From a virus, in the IMG/VR virus record IMGVR_UViG_3300045996_001455, positions 1-20,255 of that record: a stretch of 20,255 nucleotides of DNA; one strand, 5' to 3'. Shown one piece after another: positions 1,832 to 19,516 of the stretch. The notes below the pieces were generated by a model. The model saw only the letters and a list, made by a program, of their open reading frames with translations, did not search any database and was not told where the DNA came from. Both the position numbers and the translations under genes were made by a program. Numbering within the stretch: position 1 is the stretch's first letter; every line of letters starts with the position of its first letter.

Positions 1832-4800
1832 ATGGGTGGGGTGATCACGCGGGCGTGGCGGTGGCTGACGCTTGCTGACGTGGGGACGGTTCCGCGGCTG
1901 ACGTTCGCGGAACCGGCGCCGCGCCCGATTGATCGCGTTATCGCAGAGTTTGCGCAGATCGGCGTGTCGCCGAAAGCCTCGAGGACGGAGGCGCTCTCGC
2001 TCTCCGTCGTCCTCAAGGGCCGGAACATGATCGCGTCGATTGCGACGCTCCCGCTCGAGGTCCTCGACGAGGATTTCCGGCCGCAGCCGGCCGGGTTCCT
2101 GGGGCAGATCGACCCGAACGTCCCGAACGTGGTCACGCTCGCGCAGACCGTAGACGACTTGCTGTTCGAGGGCATCGCGTGGTGGCGGAAGCTCGCCCTC
2201 GACCCGCTCGGGTTTCCTGTCGCCGCGGAACACGTCGACGTCGGTCGGGTGTCCCTCCGGCCGCCGGCCGGCCGGCAACTCGCCCCGCTCCCGTCCGGAG
2301 AGGATCCGCGCGAGGCTGTCGTCTACGTCGACGGCGTGCGGACCCCGGCGCGGCTCATGATCCGATTCGACTCGCCGAACCCCGGGCTCCTGAAGCACGC
2401 GGGGCGGCCGATCAAGCGCGCGCTCGCCCTCGACCGGGCGGCCGGCATGTATGCCGATCAACCGCGGGCCCGCGGCTACTTCACTCCGACGCTCGGCGCG
2501 GATCCGGTCGAGGACGGAGACGTCGAGGAGATCCTCGACGACTGGGCGGACGGGCGTAAAAAGCACGTCGACGGCTACGTCCCGGCCGCGCTCACATATA
2601 ACGTCATCGATGAACTGTCGCCGGCGGACCTGCAGCTTGTCGACCTGCAGAAGCAGGTCATGCTCGAGCTCGTCAACGCGATGGGACTCGATCCGGAGGA
2701 CGTCGGCTTGTCGACGACGAGCCGGACCTACCAGAACGCCGTTGACCGGCGGAAAGACCGTGTCAACGACGTGTTGGCGCCGTACATGTCCGCGATCACG
2801 CAGCGGTTGACCATGGAGGACATCACCCGGCATGGGCTATCAGTGTTCTTCGATCTCGACGACTACCTCAAGCCGGACCCCTTGACCCGCGCGCAGGTCG
2901 CGCAGCGTGGCATCGAGGACGGGACGCTCACGCCCGCGGAGGCGCGGCGCGAGGAGCGGCGGCCGCCGCTCCCGGCCGGCTACCGCGCGCCCTCCAAGGA
3001 TCCTGCGCCGGCCGGGGTCGCCGCGGCCGCGAGTGCCGGTCTCCGCCTCGACGGCGGAGGCGCCCGGATGGCGTCGACTGTGCCGCTCGTCCACTTCGCG
3101 GTGGACGAGAAGCGCCGGGAGATCGTCGGTGTGGCTCTGCCGTACGGCACATCGCAGGTGGCGCAGAAGTACTGGCGCAAGTACCGATTCGAGCGCCACG
3201 CTCTACAGTGGACAGACGCCGGTCGCGTGAAACTGTTGCGTGACCACGATTACGGGCAACTGCTCGGCCGTGCGGTCGAGCTCGAACACCTCGAGAACGG
3301 TCTCCGTGTCCGGTTCCGCGTCGCGGCCGGGGCAGAGGGCGACCGGGCGCTGTCTCTCGCCGCGGAGGGCATCCTCGACGGGCTGTCGGTGGGTGTCGAC
3401 TTCGACGACGCGGACACAATCCCGGACCCGCACAACAAAGGCGTGACGCTCGTGCGTCGCGCAACCCTGCGGGAAGTCAGCCTCACAGCGATTCCCGCAT
3501 TCGATGATGCCCGCGTGACGTCGGTCGCCGCGGCGAACACGGAGGAACCAATGCAGTGTGCAGCGTGCGGTAACACGCACTCGCCTACCGTGGCGTGCCC
3601 GTCGCAGGGCATCGCGGCGAGCTCCGGCGGTCAGCAGCCGCAGGGGCAGCAGCCCGTGCAGCAGCAGCAGCCCGTGCAGCAGCAGCCGCAGGGGCAGCAG
3701 CCCGTGCAGCAGCAGGGGCAGCCGTTCATGCCCGATCCCGCGATGATGGCTCAGTTCGCGGCCTTCATGGCGCAGCAGCCCACCGCGCAGCAGCAGCAGC
3801 CGCAGTGGCCCGGCGGCCCGACCTACATGGTGCCGCAGCAGACCCCGGGCGGTGGCTTCTCGTGGGGGGCGCCGCAGCAGGGCGTGCCCGTGCAGCAGGT
3901 GCAGCAGGTCGCCGCGATGGTCGACCCGACCCGCGGCGGCGCGGCCATGAACGGCGGTGCCGTCGAGGTGCGCGAACCGGCGCCCTACACGTTCGGCCGG
4001 GTGCGGAACGCCTTCGACGAGTGGGAGCTCCGCCGCGGCCCGAACGGGTACGACTTCTCCACCGACCTCATCGCCGGATCCCGCGGCAACGGTGAGGCGC
4101 TCGCGCGCGCGACCACCTTCATGCGGGAGCACTTCGACGTCGACAAGGCGGACGCGGCCGCGCTGAACCCGACCCGTCAGCGTCCGGACATGTACGTGGA
4201 CCAGCGCCAGTACCGGTACCCGGTGTGGGAGCGGATCAACAAGGGTTCGCTGGAGGACGCGACCCCGTTCACGTTCCCGAAGTTCTCGAGCTCGTCCGGG
4301 CTCGTCGGGGCGCACACGGAGGGCGTCGAGCCGACCCCGGGCAGCATGGCGGCAACGTCGGCGACGGTCACCCCTGCGCCCAAGTCGGGCAAGGTGGAGA
4401 TCACCCGGGAGGCGTGGGACCAGGGCGGCAACCCGAAGTTGTCCACGCTGATCTGGCGCCAAATGGAGCGCGCGTGGTTCGAGTCGCTCGAGGCGGCCGC
4501 GGTCGCGGTCCTCGACGCGGCGTCTCCGACTGCGATCGCGCTCACGGCCGGCGCGGTGGACGCGGCGCTCGCGGAGGAGCTCGAGCAGAAACTCGCGCTC
4601 CTGCACTTCGTCCGCGGTGGCTTCTCCATGGACAGCGCGTTCGCGCAGGTCGACCTCTACAAGGCGCTCACGTCGGCCCGGGACACGGCCGGCCGGCCGC
4701 TGTACCCGATCCTCGGCGCGAGCAACGCCAACGGCACGACCGCGCAGCGGTTCGGCTCGATCGACGTCGGCGGCGTGCTGTTCCTTCCGGCGTGGGCGCT

Positions 4801-4996
4801 CGCCGCGACGGGCTCCGTCGTCGCGAGCTCCTACCTGTTCGATCGCGAGTCCGTCTGGGGTTGGGCGACCGCCCCGCAGCGGCTCGAGTTCCAGTACCGC
4901 GTGGCCTACGTCGACGTGGCAATCTGGGGCTACGCGGCGACCGCCATCACGGACATCAACGGCGTGCGTGAGATCACGTACGACCCCGTGGCCTGA
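1832..4996 (+). CDS. Fused portal / HK97-type prohead protease / major capsid protein
   Basis: One uninterrupted 1054-residue frame carries three head functions normally encoded by separate genes. Residues 1 to about 395 look like a phage portal. Residues 413-573 look like a U35-type prohead protease: candidate catalytic H472 in LRDHDYG and S519 in DGLSVGVD, followed by LREVSLTAIPAF. Residues 574-600 contain a small CxxC..H..C knuckle, about 600-690 are Gln-rich, and about 700-1054 resemble an HK97-fold capsid protein ending in AYVDVAIWGYAATA. ATGs at 3068 (M413) and 3551 (M574) have good Shine-Dalgarno sequences, so separate protease and capsid products are possible. The start at 1832 follows the terminase stop closely. 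Domain identities rest on family resemblance; whether the product is one polyprotein, is self-cleaved, or is made as three proteins cannot be told from the sequence. Confidence 0.88.
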   Translation: MGGVITRAWRWLTLADVGTVPRLTFAEPAPRPIDRVIAEFAQIGVSPKASRTEALSLSVVLKGRNMIASIATLPLEVLDEDFRPQPAGFLGQIDPNVPNVVTLAQTVDDLLFEGIAWWRKLALDPLGFPVAAEHVDVGRVSLRPPAGRQLAPLPSGEDPREAVVYVDGVRTPARLMIRFDSPNPGLLKHAGRPIKRALALDRAAGMYADQPRARGYFTPTLGADPVEDGDVEEILDDWADGRKKHVDGYVPAALTYNVIDELSPADLQLVDLQKQVMLELVNAMGLDPEDVGLSTTSRTYQNAVDRRKDRVNDVLAPYMSAITQRLTMEDITRHGLSVFFDLDDYLKPDPLTRAQVAQRGIEDGTLTPAEARREERRPPLPAGYRAPSKDPAPAGVAAAASAGLRLDGGGARMASTVPLVHFAVDEKRREIVGVALPYGTSQVAQKYWRKYRFERHALQWTDAGRVKLLRDHDYGQLLGRAVELEHLENGLRVRFRVAAGAEGDRALSLAAEGILDGLSVGVDFDDADTIPDPHNKGVTLVRRATLREVSLTAIPAFDDARVTSVAAANTEEPMQCAACGNTHSPTVACPSQGIAASSGGQQPQGQQPVQQQQPVQQQPQGQQPVQQQGQPFMPDPAMMAQFAAFMAQQPTAQQQQPQWPGGPTYMVPQQTPGGGFSWGAPQQGVPVQQVQQVAAMVDPTRGGAAMNGGAVEVREPAPYTFGRVRNAFDEWELRRGPNGYDFSTDLIAGSRGNGEALARATTFMREHFDVDKADAAALNPTRQRPDMYVDQRQYRYPVWERINKGSLEDATPFTFPKFSSSSGLVGAHTEGVEPTPGSMAATSATVTPAPKSGKVEITREAWDQGGNPKLSTLIWRQMERAWFESLEAAAVAVLDAASPTAIALTAGAVDAALAEELEQKLALLHFVRGGFSMDSAFAQVDLYKALTSARDTAGRPLYPILGASNANGTTAQRFGSIDVGGVLFLPAWALAATGSVVASSYLFDRESVWGWATAPQRLEFQYRVAYVDVAIWGYAATAITDINGVREITYDPVA
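3056..3070 (+). promoter_or_regulatory. Internal ribosome binding site and ATG for the protease domain
   Basis: GGAGG at 3056-3060 stands seven bases before an in-frame ATG at 3068, exactly where the protease-like domain begins (M413). It may be a live internal start or a relic of a once separate gene. Caution: gcg-gag (Ala-Glu) codons make GGAGG common in this genome. Confidence 0.45.
3541..3553 (+). promoter_or_regulatory. Internal ribosome binding site and ATG for the capsid domain
   Basis: GGAGGA at 3541-3546 stands four bases before an in-frame ATG at 3551 (M574), at the junction between the end of the protease-like domain and the Cys-rich start of the capsid part. Motif and spacing are close to ideal, making this the stronger of the two internal start candidates. 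It would yield a 481-residue capsid protein. Confidence 0.55.
3632..3715 (+). repeat. Perfect 36-bp direct repeat in the Gln-rich linker
   Basis: The 36 bases at 3632-3667 recur exactly at 3680-3715, a 48-base period, inside a CAG-rich tract coding for QQP, QGQQP and PVQQQ units. Further Gln-rich sequence without the exact repeat continues to about 3910. The tract lies between the protease and the shell-forming part of the capsid fusion. Such a tract can change length by slippage. Confidence 0.9.
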
Positions 4997-5921: not shown

Positions 5922-6338
5922 ATGCCGGCAGCAACCGGGGCAATCGTCCTGAAGAACGCCCTCGTCACGATTGATGAGGTTGAATACGCCAACCAGGTGC
6001 GTAAGGCGCGGTTCGTGCCCACGCAGGAGACGCAGACCTACAAGACGCTCGTCCCGGACGGTGCGCAGAGCGACACCGACAACGCGACGTGGGTACTCGA
6101 GCTCGCCGGCCTGCAGATTTGGACCGCGGGCGGCGTCGCGGACGCGATCGACGACGCGGCGATTGCCGGGACGGAGCTCGAGATCGTCTGCCAGTGGAAG
6201 ACCGGAGCGGGTCAGCCGACCGTCACGGCAACGATCAAGCCGGTTCGCCTCCCGATGGGCGGCGAGCAGGGACAGTTCATGGAGATCGACGTACAGATCC
6301 CGGTTGTGGGTGACCCCGTGCGCGGGGTCTCCGCGTAG
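5922..6338 (+). CDS. Major tail tube protein
   Basis: A 138-residue, beta-rich protein without Cys-rich or catalytic motifs, placed just before the chaperone genes and the tape measure. Its pattern (short N-terminal strand AIVLKNALVTIDEVEYANQV, central NATWVLELAGLQ, late strands PTVTATIKPVRLPM and FMEIDVQIPVVG) matches compact siphovirus tube proteins that stack as hexameric rings. It begins with ATG three bases after the previous stop. It should be among the most abundant virion proteins. The assignment combines position and overall character, and a minor structural protein of the same fold cannot be excluded. Confidence 0.7.
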   Translation: MPAATGAIVLKNALVTIDEVEYANQVRKARFVPTQETQTYKTLVPDGAQSDTDNATWVLELAGLQIWTAGGVADAIDDAAIAGTELEIVCQWKTGAGQPTVTATIKPVRLPMGGEQGQFMEIDVQIPVVGDPVRGVSA

Positions 6339-13120: not shown

Positions 13121-13448
13121 GGGATCGATCACATGGCCCGTGGTCGTGCTCGTCCTCATCGGCGTTGCGGGATTCGTGGGCATCTTCGCCCTGATCCCGG
13201 ACGACGAGCCGGAGAGCCGATCCGCGCTGCTGAGCGTCATCACCGTGACCGCGTCCGGCATCCTGGCCTGGGTCGTCAACCGCAAGGTGAACGCGGTGCA
13301 GGACGACGTGAGCGCGGTCGGCCGGGAGGTCGGCACGGTCAAGCGGCTCGTCAACGGGAACACGGCGCGACTGATCGACAAGCTCCCGGCCGGCGAGCAG
13401 GAGCTCGAGCGGGACGTCCACGAAAAGATCATGAGGGAGAACGCATGA
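13107..13448 (+). CDS. Holin-like membrane protein
   Basis: A 113-residue protein following the endolysin. Hydrophobic segments lie at about residues 9-30 (WPVVVLVLIGVAGFVGIFAL) and 40-57 (LLSVITVTASGILAWVV), then a long charged, helical tail (VNAVQDDVSAVGREVGTVK...). Two membrane segments, small size and place in the lysis cassette fit a holin, which forms the membrane lesion that releases endolysin. The GTG start has AGAGGGGG about nine bases upstream, within the end of the endolysin gene. Its TGA overlaps the next ATG. Holins share little sequence, so this is a topology and context call. Confidence 0.65.
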   Translation: MNQRKGSITWPVVVLVLIGVAGFVGIFALIPDDEPESRSALLSVITVTASGILAWVVNRKVNAVQDDVSAVGREVGTVKRLVNGNTARLIDKLPAGEQELERDVHEKIMRENA

Positions 13449-13819
13449 GCGTAGGGATGAGCGCGGCGGGTGCCAACACGGCGCTCGCCGCGTTGTTGGC
13501 TGCGTACCCGTGGATCAAGCTGCACGTCGGCGACCCCGGAGCGGCCGGCACGGCGAACCCGGCAACGGAGACGACGCGGCAGCAGGTCGCGTGGGATGCG
13601 CCCTCCGCCGGCGCGTCACAGAACGACGGTGCGGAGACGTGGACCGCGGCTGTCGCGACCGGCACGGAGGACGTGACGCACTTCTCGGCGTGGTCCGCGT
13701 CGTCCGGCGGGACGTTCGGCTTCTCCGGCACGATCACGGCGAACGCGTTCACGACCGGGACGGACCTCGGTCTTGCCGATGGCGACCTCGACATCTCCAT
13801 GACGGTCGGCGCGGCCTAG
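13445..13819 (+). CDS. Tail fibre-like protein
   Basis: A 124-residue protein with the actinophage fibre-type pattern YPWIKLHVGDPGAAGTANPA, TTRQQVAWDAPSAG, an aromatic THFSAWSASSGGTFGFSG and a closing DLGLADGDLDISMTVG. The family is annotated as putative tail fibre or minor tail protein in many actinophages and prophages; the exact role is not established. It overlaps the holin-like gene by four bases (ATGA). An in-frame ATG at 13457 is an alternative start. Its place after the lysis genes, next to a larger fibre-like gene, suggests a small host-recognition module at the end of the late operon. Confidence 0.6.
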   Translation: MSVGMSAAGANTALAALLAAYPWIKLHVGDPGAAGTANPATETTRQQVAWDAPSAGASQNDGAETWTAAVATGTEDVTHFSAWSASSGGTFGFSGTITANAFTTGTDLGLADGDLDISMTVGAA

Positions 13820-13821
13820 CC

Positions 13822-14913
13822 ATGGCTCGCCGGTTTCAGGCGGGACAGCGTGCCGTGTTTGCTGCGCCGGCTGCGCTGACGTCCGGCGGGGGTGCCGATG
13901 CGGGCCCGTTGACCATGATGGCGGTTGTCAAGGTCAACACGACCGGGTATCAGTGCCCGATCTACGCCCGGACGTCCGGCGGGGCGCACGCTTGGGCCGC
14001 GGAGTACACCTCGAGCGGCGGCGTGACAACCGGCGCCATGGCGGCCGGATCCACCGCTCGAGCGGTCAATACGGTCACGCGGTCCGCGTGGATCGCGCAC
14101 TTTTTCCGCAAGGATGCCGGCGGCACGTTCCAGCCGATCGGGCGCGTGCTCTCCGGCGCGAACTTCGCGACCGACAGTGGAGACGTGACCGCCGGTTCCA
14201 CTCTGTCCGATGGGCCCGCGCTCGATGCCGGCGGCACTCTCACGCTCGGCCGGTGGGGCACGACCGACGAGTCCGACGACCTCGAGGTGGCCGGACTGCA
14301 GTTCTGGCGCTCCCTGCTCACGGGTGCGCAGTGCGTCGCGAAACCAACCTGGGCGCTCGGGCTCGCCTCGCCGGCGCCGGACTACTGGATCACCTGCGCC
14401 GGGTCGACGTTCGTCGACTCGGCCGGCGCGTCTCCGACCTTGACCGGCGCCCCGTCCGTGACCGCGGACCCGTCCGGGTACTTCGGCTCGAGCGTAGTCG
14501 CGCTCGCCGGCGCCGCGTCGCTCGGCGGCATCACGGCGGCCGGCATCCTGCGGCCGCGGATCGTCCTCGCCGGCGCCGCGTCGCTCGGCGGCATCGCAAG
14601 TGCGGCCGCACTTCAGCCGCGGGTCGCGCTCGCCGGCGCCGCGTCGCTCGGCGGCATCACGGCGGCCGGCATCCTGCGGCCGCGGGTCGCGCTCGCCGGC
14701 GCCGCGTCGCTCGGCGGCATCACGGCGGCCGCGCTGCTCACGATCGCCGGGTCCGTCAGCCTCATCGGCTCGGCGTCGCTCGGCGGCATCACGGCGACGC
14801 TCCGGCTGACGACCCCGGGCAGTACCGTAAGGGCAGGCCTCGCGCCGGCATCGCGCCGGCGTCCCACGCTCACGGCCGGCCGGCCGGGGCGCACACTTCG
14901 CGTAGGGAGCTAG
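13822..14913 (+). CDS. Repeat-containing tail fibre-like protein
   Basis: A 363-residue protein. The N-terminal two-thirds (about 1-225) resemble a lectin-like jelly roll: PLTMMAVVKVNTTGYQCPIY, ARTSGGAHAWAAEYTS, GTLTLGRWG and ADLEVAGLQFWR-type strands (DDLEVAGLQFWRSLL here). Residues about 228-333 consist of five tandem units built on LAGAASLGGITAA, followed by a short basic tail (SRRRPTLTAGRPGRTLRVGS). This plan suggests surface-glycan binding on a repetitive stalk. ATG 13822 follows the preceding stop by two bases. The lectin-like reading is an inference from strand patterns, and a generic structural protein is possible. Confidence 0.55.
   Translation: MARRFQAGQRAVFAAPAALTSGGGADAGPLTMMAVVKVNTTGYQCPIYARTSGGAHAWAAEYTSSGGVTTGAMAAGSTARAVNTVTRSAWIAHFFRKDAGGTFQPIGRVLSGANFATDSGDVTAGSTLSDGPALDAGGTLTLGRWGTTDESDDLEVAGLQFWRSLLTGAQCVAKPTWALGLASPAPDYWITCAGSTFVDSAGASPTLTGAPSVTADPSGYFGSSVVALAGAASLGGITAAGILRPRIVLAGAASLGGIASAAALQPRVALAGAASLGGITAAGILRPRVALAGAASLGGITAAALLTIAGSVSLIGSASLGGITATLRLTTPGSTVRAGLAPASRRRPTLTAGRPGRTLRVGS
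14503..14820 (+). repeat. Tandem coding repeats of 63 bp
   Basis: Units begin at 14503, 14566, 14629, 14692 and 14761. The first three are 63 bp, the fourth 69 bp and the fifth is diverged. Each codes for an LAGAASLGGI core plus a variable part. Units 1 and 3 are nearly identical at DNA level, showing recent duplication or gene conversion. Confidence 0.93.
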
Positions 14914-17523: not shown

Positions 17524-17563
17524 CGCGGGACCAGCCTTTCGTATCGGTGGGGTGTTGGGGGAG

Positions 17564-17591
17564 AACGTAGCACAGTTGACAGTACTGTCAA
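17564..17591 (-). promoter_or_regulatory. Leftward early promoter
   Basis: On the minus strand TTGACA (17591-17586), 16-base spacer, TACGTT (17569-17564). The predicted start lies about 34 bases before ATG 17523, leaving room for the GAAAGG ribosome binding site. Confidence 0.6.
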
Positions 17592-17592
17592 C
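17575..17592. promoter_or_regulatory. Perfect 18-bp palindrome between divergent operons, probable operator
   Basis: GTTGACAGTACTGTCAAC is a perfect palindrome. Each half contains a consensus -35 box, TTGACA on the plus strand (17576-17581) and TTGACA on the minus strand (17591-17586), so any protein bound here would cover both promoters. Confidence 0.85.
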
Positions 17593-17603
17593 AGTGCTAG
17601 TGT
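17576..17603 (+). promoter_or_regulatory. Rightward early promoter
   Basis: TTGACA (17576-17581), 16-base spacer, TAGTGT (17598-17603). The start site predicted about seven bases on falls at or next to the ATG at 17611, with no Shine-Dalgarno sequence in between, which points to a leaderless message. Confidence 0.65.
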
Positions 17604-17610
17604 CTCCGCC

Positions 17611-17781
17611 ATGGAACCGATCAAGCTGGAAACGGACAGAGCGGCTGTCGCCCGGGCGACCCGTAGTCGGACGGCGGACGAGCGGGAGGCGGAGAGGCTC
17701 CGCGGCCGCGGGTGGGACGTCCGGCCGCCGTGCGACCTCGGCGAGCAGGTCGCGAGCGGCAAGTACGGGCTCCGGCAGTGA
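17611..17781 (+). CDS. Small charged protein of unknown function, probably leaderless
   Basis: Fifty-six residues, MEPIKLETDRAAVARATRSR then TADEREAERLRGRGWDVRPP, ending LGEQVASGKYGLRQ. It is a charged helical protein with one cysteine and no recognised family. It is the first gene of the rightward operon; the start ATG lies where transcription should begin, so translation is likely leaderless, a common mode in actinobacteria. The stop overlaps the next start (GTGA). Its first position behind a palindromic operator would suit a small regulator, but no helix-turn-helix is evident. Confidence 0.6.
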   Translation: MEPIKLETDRAAVARATRSRTADEREAERLRGRGWDVRPPCDLGEQVASGKYGLRQ

Positions 17782-18053
17782 GCGCGCTCTCCGCGCTGCT
17801 CGTCGGCACGGCGCGCGCGATGCGCCGGGCGGCCGCCGTGCTCGAGCAGGTCCCGGACGGGCGGCCGGATGACTGGGCGCACACTCCGGTCCCTGGTTGG
17901 TGGGAGTCGCCGGCGCTTGCGTTCGCGGAGGGCGGCCGGGTGATGTACCTCGAGCTCACGGAGGGCGGGGCGCCGATCGACATGGGTCCGGCGATTCGAG
18001 CGCTCGAGCGGCGGAGGCGGAGCTCCCGGGAGGGGGTCGCCGGGAGCTCCTGA
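17778..18053 (+). CDS. Small protein of unknown function
   Basis: Ninety-one residues from GTG 17778, overlapping the preceding TGA. It starts with an Ala-rich helix (LSALLVGTARAMRRAAAVLE), then a segment with aromatic residues (DDWAHTPVPGWWESPALAF), a strand pair (GGRVMYLELTEGG) and a basic helical end (IRALERRRRSSREG). No family recognised. About 98 bases separate it from the helicase gene; in that interval only the CGGTTACACC copy at 18122 and the GAAAGG ribosome site were noted. Confidence 0.55.
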   Translation: MSALSALLVGTARAMRRAAAVLEQVPDGRPDDWAHTPVPGWWESPALAFAEGGRVMYLELTEGGAPIDMGPAIRALERRRRSSREGVAGSS

Positions 18054-18151
18054 GCCTCGCCCCTCCGACCCTTCAGCCGGAGAGGCTCGCCTATTCGGCC
18101 CGGCGCCGCGATACGCCCGGCCGGTTACACCCTACGAAAGGCCAGACCAGC

Positions 18152-19516
18152 ATGACCGACTTTCGGCAATTCTTCCACCCTGACTATGGACTCAAGGCGC
18201 GAACGGCTGCGAAACGCGTGCTCGAGGCGGGTCCGCTGCTGCTTTCGCCCGATGACCGATTCTGGGGTTATGCCGGCGGCGTCTGGGCGGAGGCGGAGAA
18301 AGACCTCCACGCGCGGACGGTCGATCTCCTCGACGAGCGGTTCCGTGCGCACCACGAAACGGAGATCCGCGGCGTGATCAAGCGCATGGTCGGATCGATG
18401 GACATCAACCCTACCGGCCGGTATATCAACTTCAGTAACGGCATGGTCGCGTGGGACGCGGAGGGTAAGCCGGAGAAGCTCCCGCACCATGAGGAGTACC
18501 TCTCGACCGTGCAACTGCCGGTCCGGTACGTCGAGGGCGCCAAGTGTCCGGAGTTCGATGCGTTCATCGCGGAGGCGGTCGCGGAGGACGACCGCGGCCG
18601 CGTCTGGGAGGTCATCGGCTACCTGATGATGTCCGGCAACCCGCTGCAGAAAATGTTCCTGCTCACGGGGTCCGGCGGCAACGGCAAGGGGGTGTTGCTG
18701 CACGTCATCATGTCGATTCTCGGGAAGATCAACGTTGCGAACGTCCCGTTGCACGCGTTCATCAATGACCGGTTCGCGCCGGCGCGGTTGTACAACCGGC
18801 TCGCCAACGTATGCGGCGACATCGATGTGACCTACATCGAACAAACCGGGCTGATCAAGCAACTCGCCGGAGAGGATCTCATCGACGGGGAGCGCAAGTA
18901 CGGTCAGCCGTTCCAATTCGAGTTCTGGGGAAAGTCGATCTTCTCGGCCAACGGAATCCCGGCCTCCGCCGATCCGTCGTTCGGGTGGGTCCGCCGGTGG
19001 GAGGTCGTCGACTTCCCCAACGCCCCGCGGCGGCCGGACCGCGGACTCAAGCGCCGGCTGTCGACGGACGACGAGCTCGAGGGGATCGCGGCGCGCGCGG
19101 TCCTGGCGCTCCGGGACCTCATGGCCCGCGGGGCGTTCGTCCACGGTGCTGCAGCAACCGCAGTGCACGACGAGTTCGCGCAGCGGTCTAACAAGGTGTT
19201 GCAGTGGCTGACCGAAACCACGTTCGAGGATCCCTCGAGCTGGTACGACCGCCCCACGATGGTCAAGCGATTCCGGGTGTGGGACGCGTACAACAACCCG
19301 TCTGCGCGGGTGCTCGGCACGCAGAAGTTCTACGAAATGGTGCGCGGGGTGCTGGGGCACGAACGCAAGCGCCGGGGGATCTACGGGTTCGCTGGCCGCC
19401 GGTTCCTCGAGGACATCGCTTACTCAGAGGTGGTCGACGGTTCGGCGGAGAGTGACGACGAAAATGCCCCATCGCAAGGGGGCAATTCCGGATTTAGCCA
19501 ACCGCACCTAGTCTGA
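18152..19516 (+). CDS. D5-type superfamily 3 replicative helicase
   Basis: A 454-residue ATP-driven DNA helicase of the phage/plasmid primase C-terminal (D5/P4-like) group. Walker A is GSGGNGKG with K179, Walker B is NVCGDID (D223, D225) and sensor 1 is FSANGIP (N267), followed by a likely arginine finger in GWVRRWEVVDFP. About 150 residues precede the motor and look like the D5_N region, with no primase catalytic motif visible, so priming may come from the host or an unrecognised protein. It is the only clear replication gene. The ATG is preceded by GAAAGG about 11 bases upstream; longer in-frame starts overlap the previous gene. The last 25 residues are Ser/Asn/Glu-rich and disordered. Confidence 0.88.
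   Translation: MTDFRQFFHPDYGLKARTAAKRVLEAGPLLLSPDDRFWGYAGGVWAEAEKDLHARTVDLLDERFRAHHETEIRGVIKRMVGSMDINPTGRYINFSNGMVAWDAEGKPEKLPHHEEYLSTVQLPVRYVEGAKCPEFDAFIAEAVAEDDRGRVWEVIGYLMMSGNPLQKMFLLTGSGGNGKGVLLHVIMSILGKINVANVPLHAFINDRFAPARLYNRLANVCGDIDVTYIEQTGLIKQLAGEDLIDGERKYGQPFQFEFWGKSIFSANGIPASADPSFGWVRRWEVVDFPNAPRRPDRGLKRRLSTDDELEGIAARAVLALRDLMARGAFVHGAAATAVHDEFAQRSNKVLQWLTETTFEDPSSWYDRPTMVKRFRVWDAYNNPSARVLGTQKFYEMVRGVLGHERKRRGIYGFAGRRFLEDIAYSEVVDGSAESDDENAPSQGGNSGFSQPHLV

Follow-up and report, generated by a model that had tools for sequence, protein, structure and literature searches.

A widespread phage reading frame joins portal, prohead protease and HK97-fold capsid protein and carries conserved start signals at its protease/capsid junction

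In phage HK97, the portal, the protease and a capsid protein with a delta domain are encoded by genes 3-4-5, and the capsid protein touches the portal through its scaffold domain (PMC10275583). In lambda, an initiator complex is assembled from the portal (B), the protease and the scaffold (PMC3224144). The lambda genes for the protease (C) and the scaffold (Nu3) overlap (Shaw and Murialdo 1980, cited in PMC8508860), with Nu3 nested in-frame in C. Protease, scaffold and capsid protein are combined in a single gene in Pseudomonas phage MD8 (gp5; PMC8508860), and protease-scaffold-capsid fusions have been described in small actinophages (PMC7302621, PMC5513430).

The locus described here shares with HK97 the three folds, their order and the position of the scaffold as N-terminal domain of the capsid protein, but where HK97 uses three separate genes it uses one frame. 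The window, meaning the whole stretch of DNA analyzed, comes from a small actinobacterial phage and comprises 20,255 bases (70% GC) deposited in IMG/VR as a virus record. A single open frame on its plus strand, at positions 1832 to 4996 (1,054 codons; ATG at 1832, TGA at 4994-4996), encodes a portal, a protease, a scaffold-like linker and an HK97 capsid protein, with neither a stop nor a frame anomaly between the portal, protease and capsid parts. The AlphaFold full-length model, built on an alignment of 50 relatives, contains folded blocks at about residues 30-390, 420-560 and 719-1054, with low-confidence linkers at 392-418 and 562-718. Together, Pfam, AlphaFold and Foldseek show that an HK97-type portal, an S78/U35 prohead protease and an HK97-fold capsid protein occupy one frame with two disordered linkers. 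The initial annotation, made from sequence alone, had claimed a 1,054-residue stop-free frame with portal-like, U35-protease-like and HK97-capsid-like regions in that order. Both claims held, the second by Pfam, AlphaFold and Foldseek, and the structure prediction that it proposed as a check gave three separate folded blocks.

Upstream on the same strand lies the gene for the terminase large subunit (2-1816; phrog_9, E=9e-60), which is open at the contig end and whose stop is 15 nt ahead of the fusion ATG; downstream, also on the plus strand, is a candidate major tail protein (5922-6338), supported only by a weak match (phrog_4574, E=0.001). Farther along the window, a gene with a fiber-like domain (PF23140 Gp80, 13133-13819) is followed by four to five tandem 63-nt repeats (14497-14819). 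The main replication gene recognized in the window encodes a D5-like primase/helicase (17897-19516; phrog_864, E=1e-64), and upstream of it is an imperfect 33-nt palindrome (17556-17611; ACAGTACTGT core) that is a possible operator.

The portal region (residues ~30-390, positions 1919-3001, plus strand, as are all parts of the frame given below) fulfills both criteria for an HK97-type portal, namely a profile match over the core and a portal fold. Residues 69-375 match PF04860 (E=3e-17, 63 bits against a cut-off of 39), a profile of the region matches 3kdr at E=2.7e-22, and Foldseek retrieves 3kdr (E=2e-17) and the HK97 portal 8fql with TMt of 0.66-0.71. The protease region (residues ~420-562, 3089-3517) likewise fulfills the criterion of a profile match combined with a conserved His and Ser. 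PF04586 matches residues 431-565 (E=1.5e-10, 42 bits against a cut-off of 21), TIGR01543 scores 58.6 bits (cut-off, 59), and the candidate catalytic residues H472 (3245-3247) and S519 (3386-3388), which had been named in the initial annotation, held up as invariant across 18 aligned relatives. The NCBIfam protease/capsid fusion model NF045541, run on the whole protein, reached 44.8 bits, far under its cut-off of 525.

Recognition of the capsid part depended on the query. A Pfam scan of the whole chain gave no capsid match, PDB sequence searches with the full chain did not find the capsid domain, and the PHROG "major head protein" matches were located on the protease region, not on the capsid part. 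Residues 574-1054 scanned alone matched PF25209 Phage_capsid_4 (E=7.6e-10), and Foldseek with an AlphaFold model of the C-terminal part returned 365 PDB matches at E<=1e-3, led by phage shells of the HK97 fold. TMt of the capsid domain against HK97 head and prohead structures was 0.57-0.72 (0.72 for HK97 prohead II), HK97 capsid proteins were also found with the full-length model, and the requirement of an HK97 fold for a major capsid protein is therefore fulfilled. The initial annotation had assigned all of residues 574-1054 to the capsid and needs a minor correction, as the HK97 fold starts near residue 719 (719-1054, positions 3986-4993). Residues 574-718 (3551-3985) are a Q/P-rich, scaffold-like linker that forms a disordered (low pLDDT) N-terminal extension of the capsid protein and starts with a CxxC motif (MQCAACGNTH). 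Short Q/P-rich repeats (CAGCAGCCCGTGCAGCAG units) occupy positions 3632-3800 of this linker.

An assembly or sequencing error that deleted a stop or merged separate genes is all but excluded as the source of this frame. In favor of such an error, the window is a single metagenomic contig; against it, the same architecture is present in more than 100 independent contigs and in isolate genomes. A missed frameshift or stop at the domain junctions, which had been named in advance as what would refute the fusion, is contradicted by these relatives, whose proteins, in the aligned sets, share 33-57% identity with that of the window. Searching with the protein and with an alignment confirmed 358 viral-contig candidates, of which 80 were kept, and yielded 35 loci in bacterial genomes, mostly of Micromonospora, Salinispora, Nocardioides, Kribbella, Actinoplanes and other actinobacteria; the fused relatives include prophages from cultured Micromonospora, Salinispora, Kribbella and Nocardioides. 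By profile searches, portal, protease and capsid share one frame in 121 of the 138 loci having all three domains, a fraction that is biased upward because fused proteins served as queries and the best-ranking matches were retained. The remaining loci encode either a portal and a separate protease-capsid protein (13 loci) or a portal-protease protein and a separate capsid protein (4 loci). In one of the former, L089, the portal frame (L089:3121-4800) ends in a C-terminal ADP-ribosyltransferase exoenzyme domain (PF03496, E=5e-14) rather than a protease, and the protease-capsid part comes next in a different frame.

The fusion is thus shown to be real and widespread, and it is the inclusion of the portal that appears to be new. 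No cultured phage with a portal-protease-capsid fusion was found among 50,697 phage records searched with three different queries, and no report of portal-protease-capsid chains or of a nested capsid start was found in the open-licence literature searched. That protease-capsid fusions are known in phages, as the initial annotation stated, is correct, and its further statement, offered as unconfirmed, that small actinophages carry larger fusions holds for protease-scaffold-capsid proteins (clusters EE, AN and others; PMC7302621, PMC5513430). The small actinophage siphoviruses (clusters EE, AN, AX, FE, CW, DM and RRH1) resemble the window in gene order, in small genome size and in joining an S78 protease to an HK97 capsid via a scaffold-like linker. 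In all cultured phages examined, however, the portal is a separate gene, whereas in the window it is in frame with the protease; the window's larger fusion is therefore not one of those actinophage fusions. The record for "Pseudomonas phage Hadban" (L154, OR067381.1) has gene coordinates nearly those of Arthrobacter phage Adaia, and its recorded host may be wrong. In the Gordonia/Rhodococcus phages Emperor, Schiebs, EricDab and RRH1 (L143, L148, L151 and L157), lysin genes lie between the portal and the protease-capsid gene, exactly at the point where other phages are fused.

A chain with one copy each of portal, protease and capsid protein raises a problem of stoichiometry, which, the initial annotation argued, only cleavage or internal starts could resolve. 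That argument is supported. When each of the 66 start codons in phase with the window frame was scored for Shine-Dalgarno (SD) energy, the strongest SD-ATG pairs were M413 (GGCGGAGGCGCCCGG-ATG, nt 3068) and M574 (ACGGAGGAACCA-ATG, nt 3551), at -9.5 kcal/mol each and equaled only by one TTG inside the portal. Both are at domain junctions, in or bordering disordered linkers. At the portal/protease junction (junction 1), a GGAGG at 3056-3060 precedes the candidate start M413 (3068-3070), which falls within the linker 392-418 and would give a protease-capsid product of 642 residues. At the protease/capsid junction (junction 2), a GGAGG at 3541-3545, conserved in relatives, precedes the putative start M574 (3551-3553), which would give a scaffold-capsid product of 481 residues. 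The portal's own ATG (M1, 1832) has almost no SD (-0.4 kcal/mol). On sequence and comparative evidence only, an in-frame internal ribosome binding site and start, as in lambda C/Nu3-like nesting, is present.

The comparative evidence comes from 98 relatives dereplicated at 80%, in which a junction 2 start was defined as an ATG or GTG 5-17 residues past the protease and windows of the same size served as controls. A start with an SD of -5 kcal/mol or stronger was present at junction 2 in 90/98 relatives versus 16% of control windows, and one of -7 kcal/mol or stronger in 63/98 versus 4%. Mean junction 2 SD energy was -8.2, compared with -6.6 upon synonymous recoding of the same amino acids (p=3e-11), while other ATGs of the gene showed no SD excess over recoding. 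Messenger RNA folding was weaker around junction 2 in 77 of 82, and in 68 of 84 relatives no possible portal start had an SD as strong as that of junction 2. Chance SD matches are ruled out by the control windows, the recoding and the local folding. Constraint on the amino acids is likewise insufficient as the source of the junction 2 GGAGG, because the codon bias exceeds what the protein needs and the signal persists in a different frame. In the portal-protease / capsid loci, which are three distinct loci (L013, L018 and L019) since L023 duplicates L013, the capsid gene is in another frame and starts with an SD-ATG at the homologous place, 26-35 nt past the protease domain. All 13 portal / protease-capsid loci keep an in-frame junction 2 ATG or GTG with an SD. 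Furthermore, a CxxC motif lies no more than 12 residues from the internal start in 56/95 relatives and at residue 3 or 4 in 53/95, and this fixed distance of 2-3 residues past the internal Met is as expected of a true N-terminus. The conserved junction 2 start signals are thus shown, and the internal-start option has strong comparative support at this junction; actual initiation at M574, as at M413, is inferred.

Junction 1 is more variable. Its start is strong in 35/98 relatives (17% of control windows) and weak or absent in 37/98, and it is therefore a variable addition; a separate protease-capsid product is not general. In most of the 13 portal / protease-capsid loci, the SD and start of the protease gene overlap or adjoin the portal stop, the start being less clear in L026 and L089.

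Start signals of this kind also occur outside the family. Among 12 cultured fusion phages tested, nine (Maggie, Kels, Adaia, Atraxa, Penoan, Bri160, BonaeVitae, phiExGM16 and RRH1) have a junction 2 SD-ATG, with moderate energies near -6 kcal/mol, and the protease-capsid fusions of the other three (Emperor, Schiebs and EricDab) are without one. An internal capsid start is unmentioned in the relevant sections of PMC7302621 and PMC5513430. In the MD8 protease-capsid gene (L155:4371-6452), the in-frame SD-ATG that scores strongest falls inside the gene, at residue 185 (AAGGAGGagacctggATG), and nested starts may therefore occur in unrelated fusions; MD8 differs from the window in having a separate portal and a protease that is unmatched by the window family's protease profile and ClpP-like by eye.

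We consider it likely, in the absence of protein or ribosome-profiling data, that the frame encodes a selectively maintained single-chain head precursor whose nested in-frame starts yield unequal products that are later cleaved. The weak start at 1832 would produce few full-length portal-protease-capsid chains, and the strong internal start at 3551 (M574) would supply abundant scaffold-capsid protein for the shell. In the window phage, and in roughly one in three of its relatives, the junction 1 start (here 3068, M413) would probably add extra protease-capsid chains. The full-length chains would build the portal ring with the protease, and with it a capsid arm, tethered; since the protease would be tethered to the portal ring, each procapsid would receive protease along with its portal. 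After assembly, the protease would cut the linkers to release free portal and mature capsid protein. Cleavage and its sites remain inferred, as does cutting of both the capsid and portal linkers by this particular protease, and no cleavage motif was established at either junction.

Alternatively, the frame could be a pure polyprotein, in which only equal full-length chains are made, all junctions are cut, and surplus portal and protease are discarded. The position of the protease in the chain between its partners and the disordered, cleavable linkers favor this view. We regard it as unlikely, however, as it explains neither the conserved codon-level SD-ATG at junction 2 nor the start of the capsid gene at that site in frame-broken relatives, and it would waste about 30 portals for each one used (inferred by setting 12 portals against a few hundred copies of capsid protein).

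A second alternative is that the downstream starts do all the useful work of making protease and capsid protein and that the absence of a portal stop merely leaves a tolerated C-terminal extension. Starts are indeed present at both junctions in the window, and in a tree of portal and protease, with the cultured small actinophage fusion phages as outgroup, the architecture changes 10 times, with fused and split forms interconverting; the sisters L010 (fused) and L025 (split) differ near the portal-protease junction. In the same tree, however, the length of the portal-protease linker, which ranges from 29 to 128 residues among relatives, changes at least 77 times with the frame retained, whereas neutrality predicts that two thirds of indels would break it. 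Linker lengths rest on HMM boundaries and are hence noisy, but the contrast with the 10 architecture changes is still large, so that staying in frame looks selected; neutral drift should have disrupted the frame much more frequently, which makes it probable that the covalent link confers a benefit. Moreover, in the 37/98 relatives with a weak or absent junction 1 start, protease can come only from the fusion. This by-product explanation therefore also appears improbable.

Within the preferred reading of a single-chain precursor with nested starts, a bolder version can be entertained, although we lean slightly against it: the full-length chain would be a covalent assembly initiator in which every portal subunit brings along one protease and one capsid arm. 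The protease dose would then be set at about 12 per procapsid and nucleation of the shell coupled to the portal, and the internal start would supply the remaining shell. The initiator role of the full-length chain is inferred. If this version were true, the portal fusion would be the sole protease source in relatives without a junction 1 start. By analogy with lambda and HK97, the fusion would render the initiator covalent. Lambda, unlike the window, makes its portal and its major capsid protein E as separate chains. Its nested product consists of scaffold only, compared with scaffold plus capsid in the window, where the portal is covalently attached.

Collectively, these observations suggest that many of the cultured actinophage proteins annotated as "capsid and protease fusion" may in fact yield a shorter capsid protein by internal initiation. 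How one portal is built into each shell and how the protease enters are old open questions in tailed phages, and in a family where the three partners are covalently linked, with their ratio set by nested starts as proposed here, both would become testable by simple mutations.
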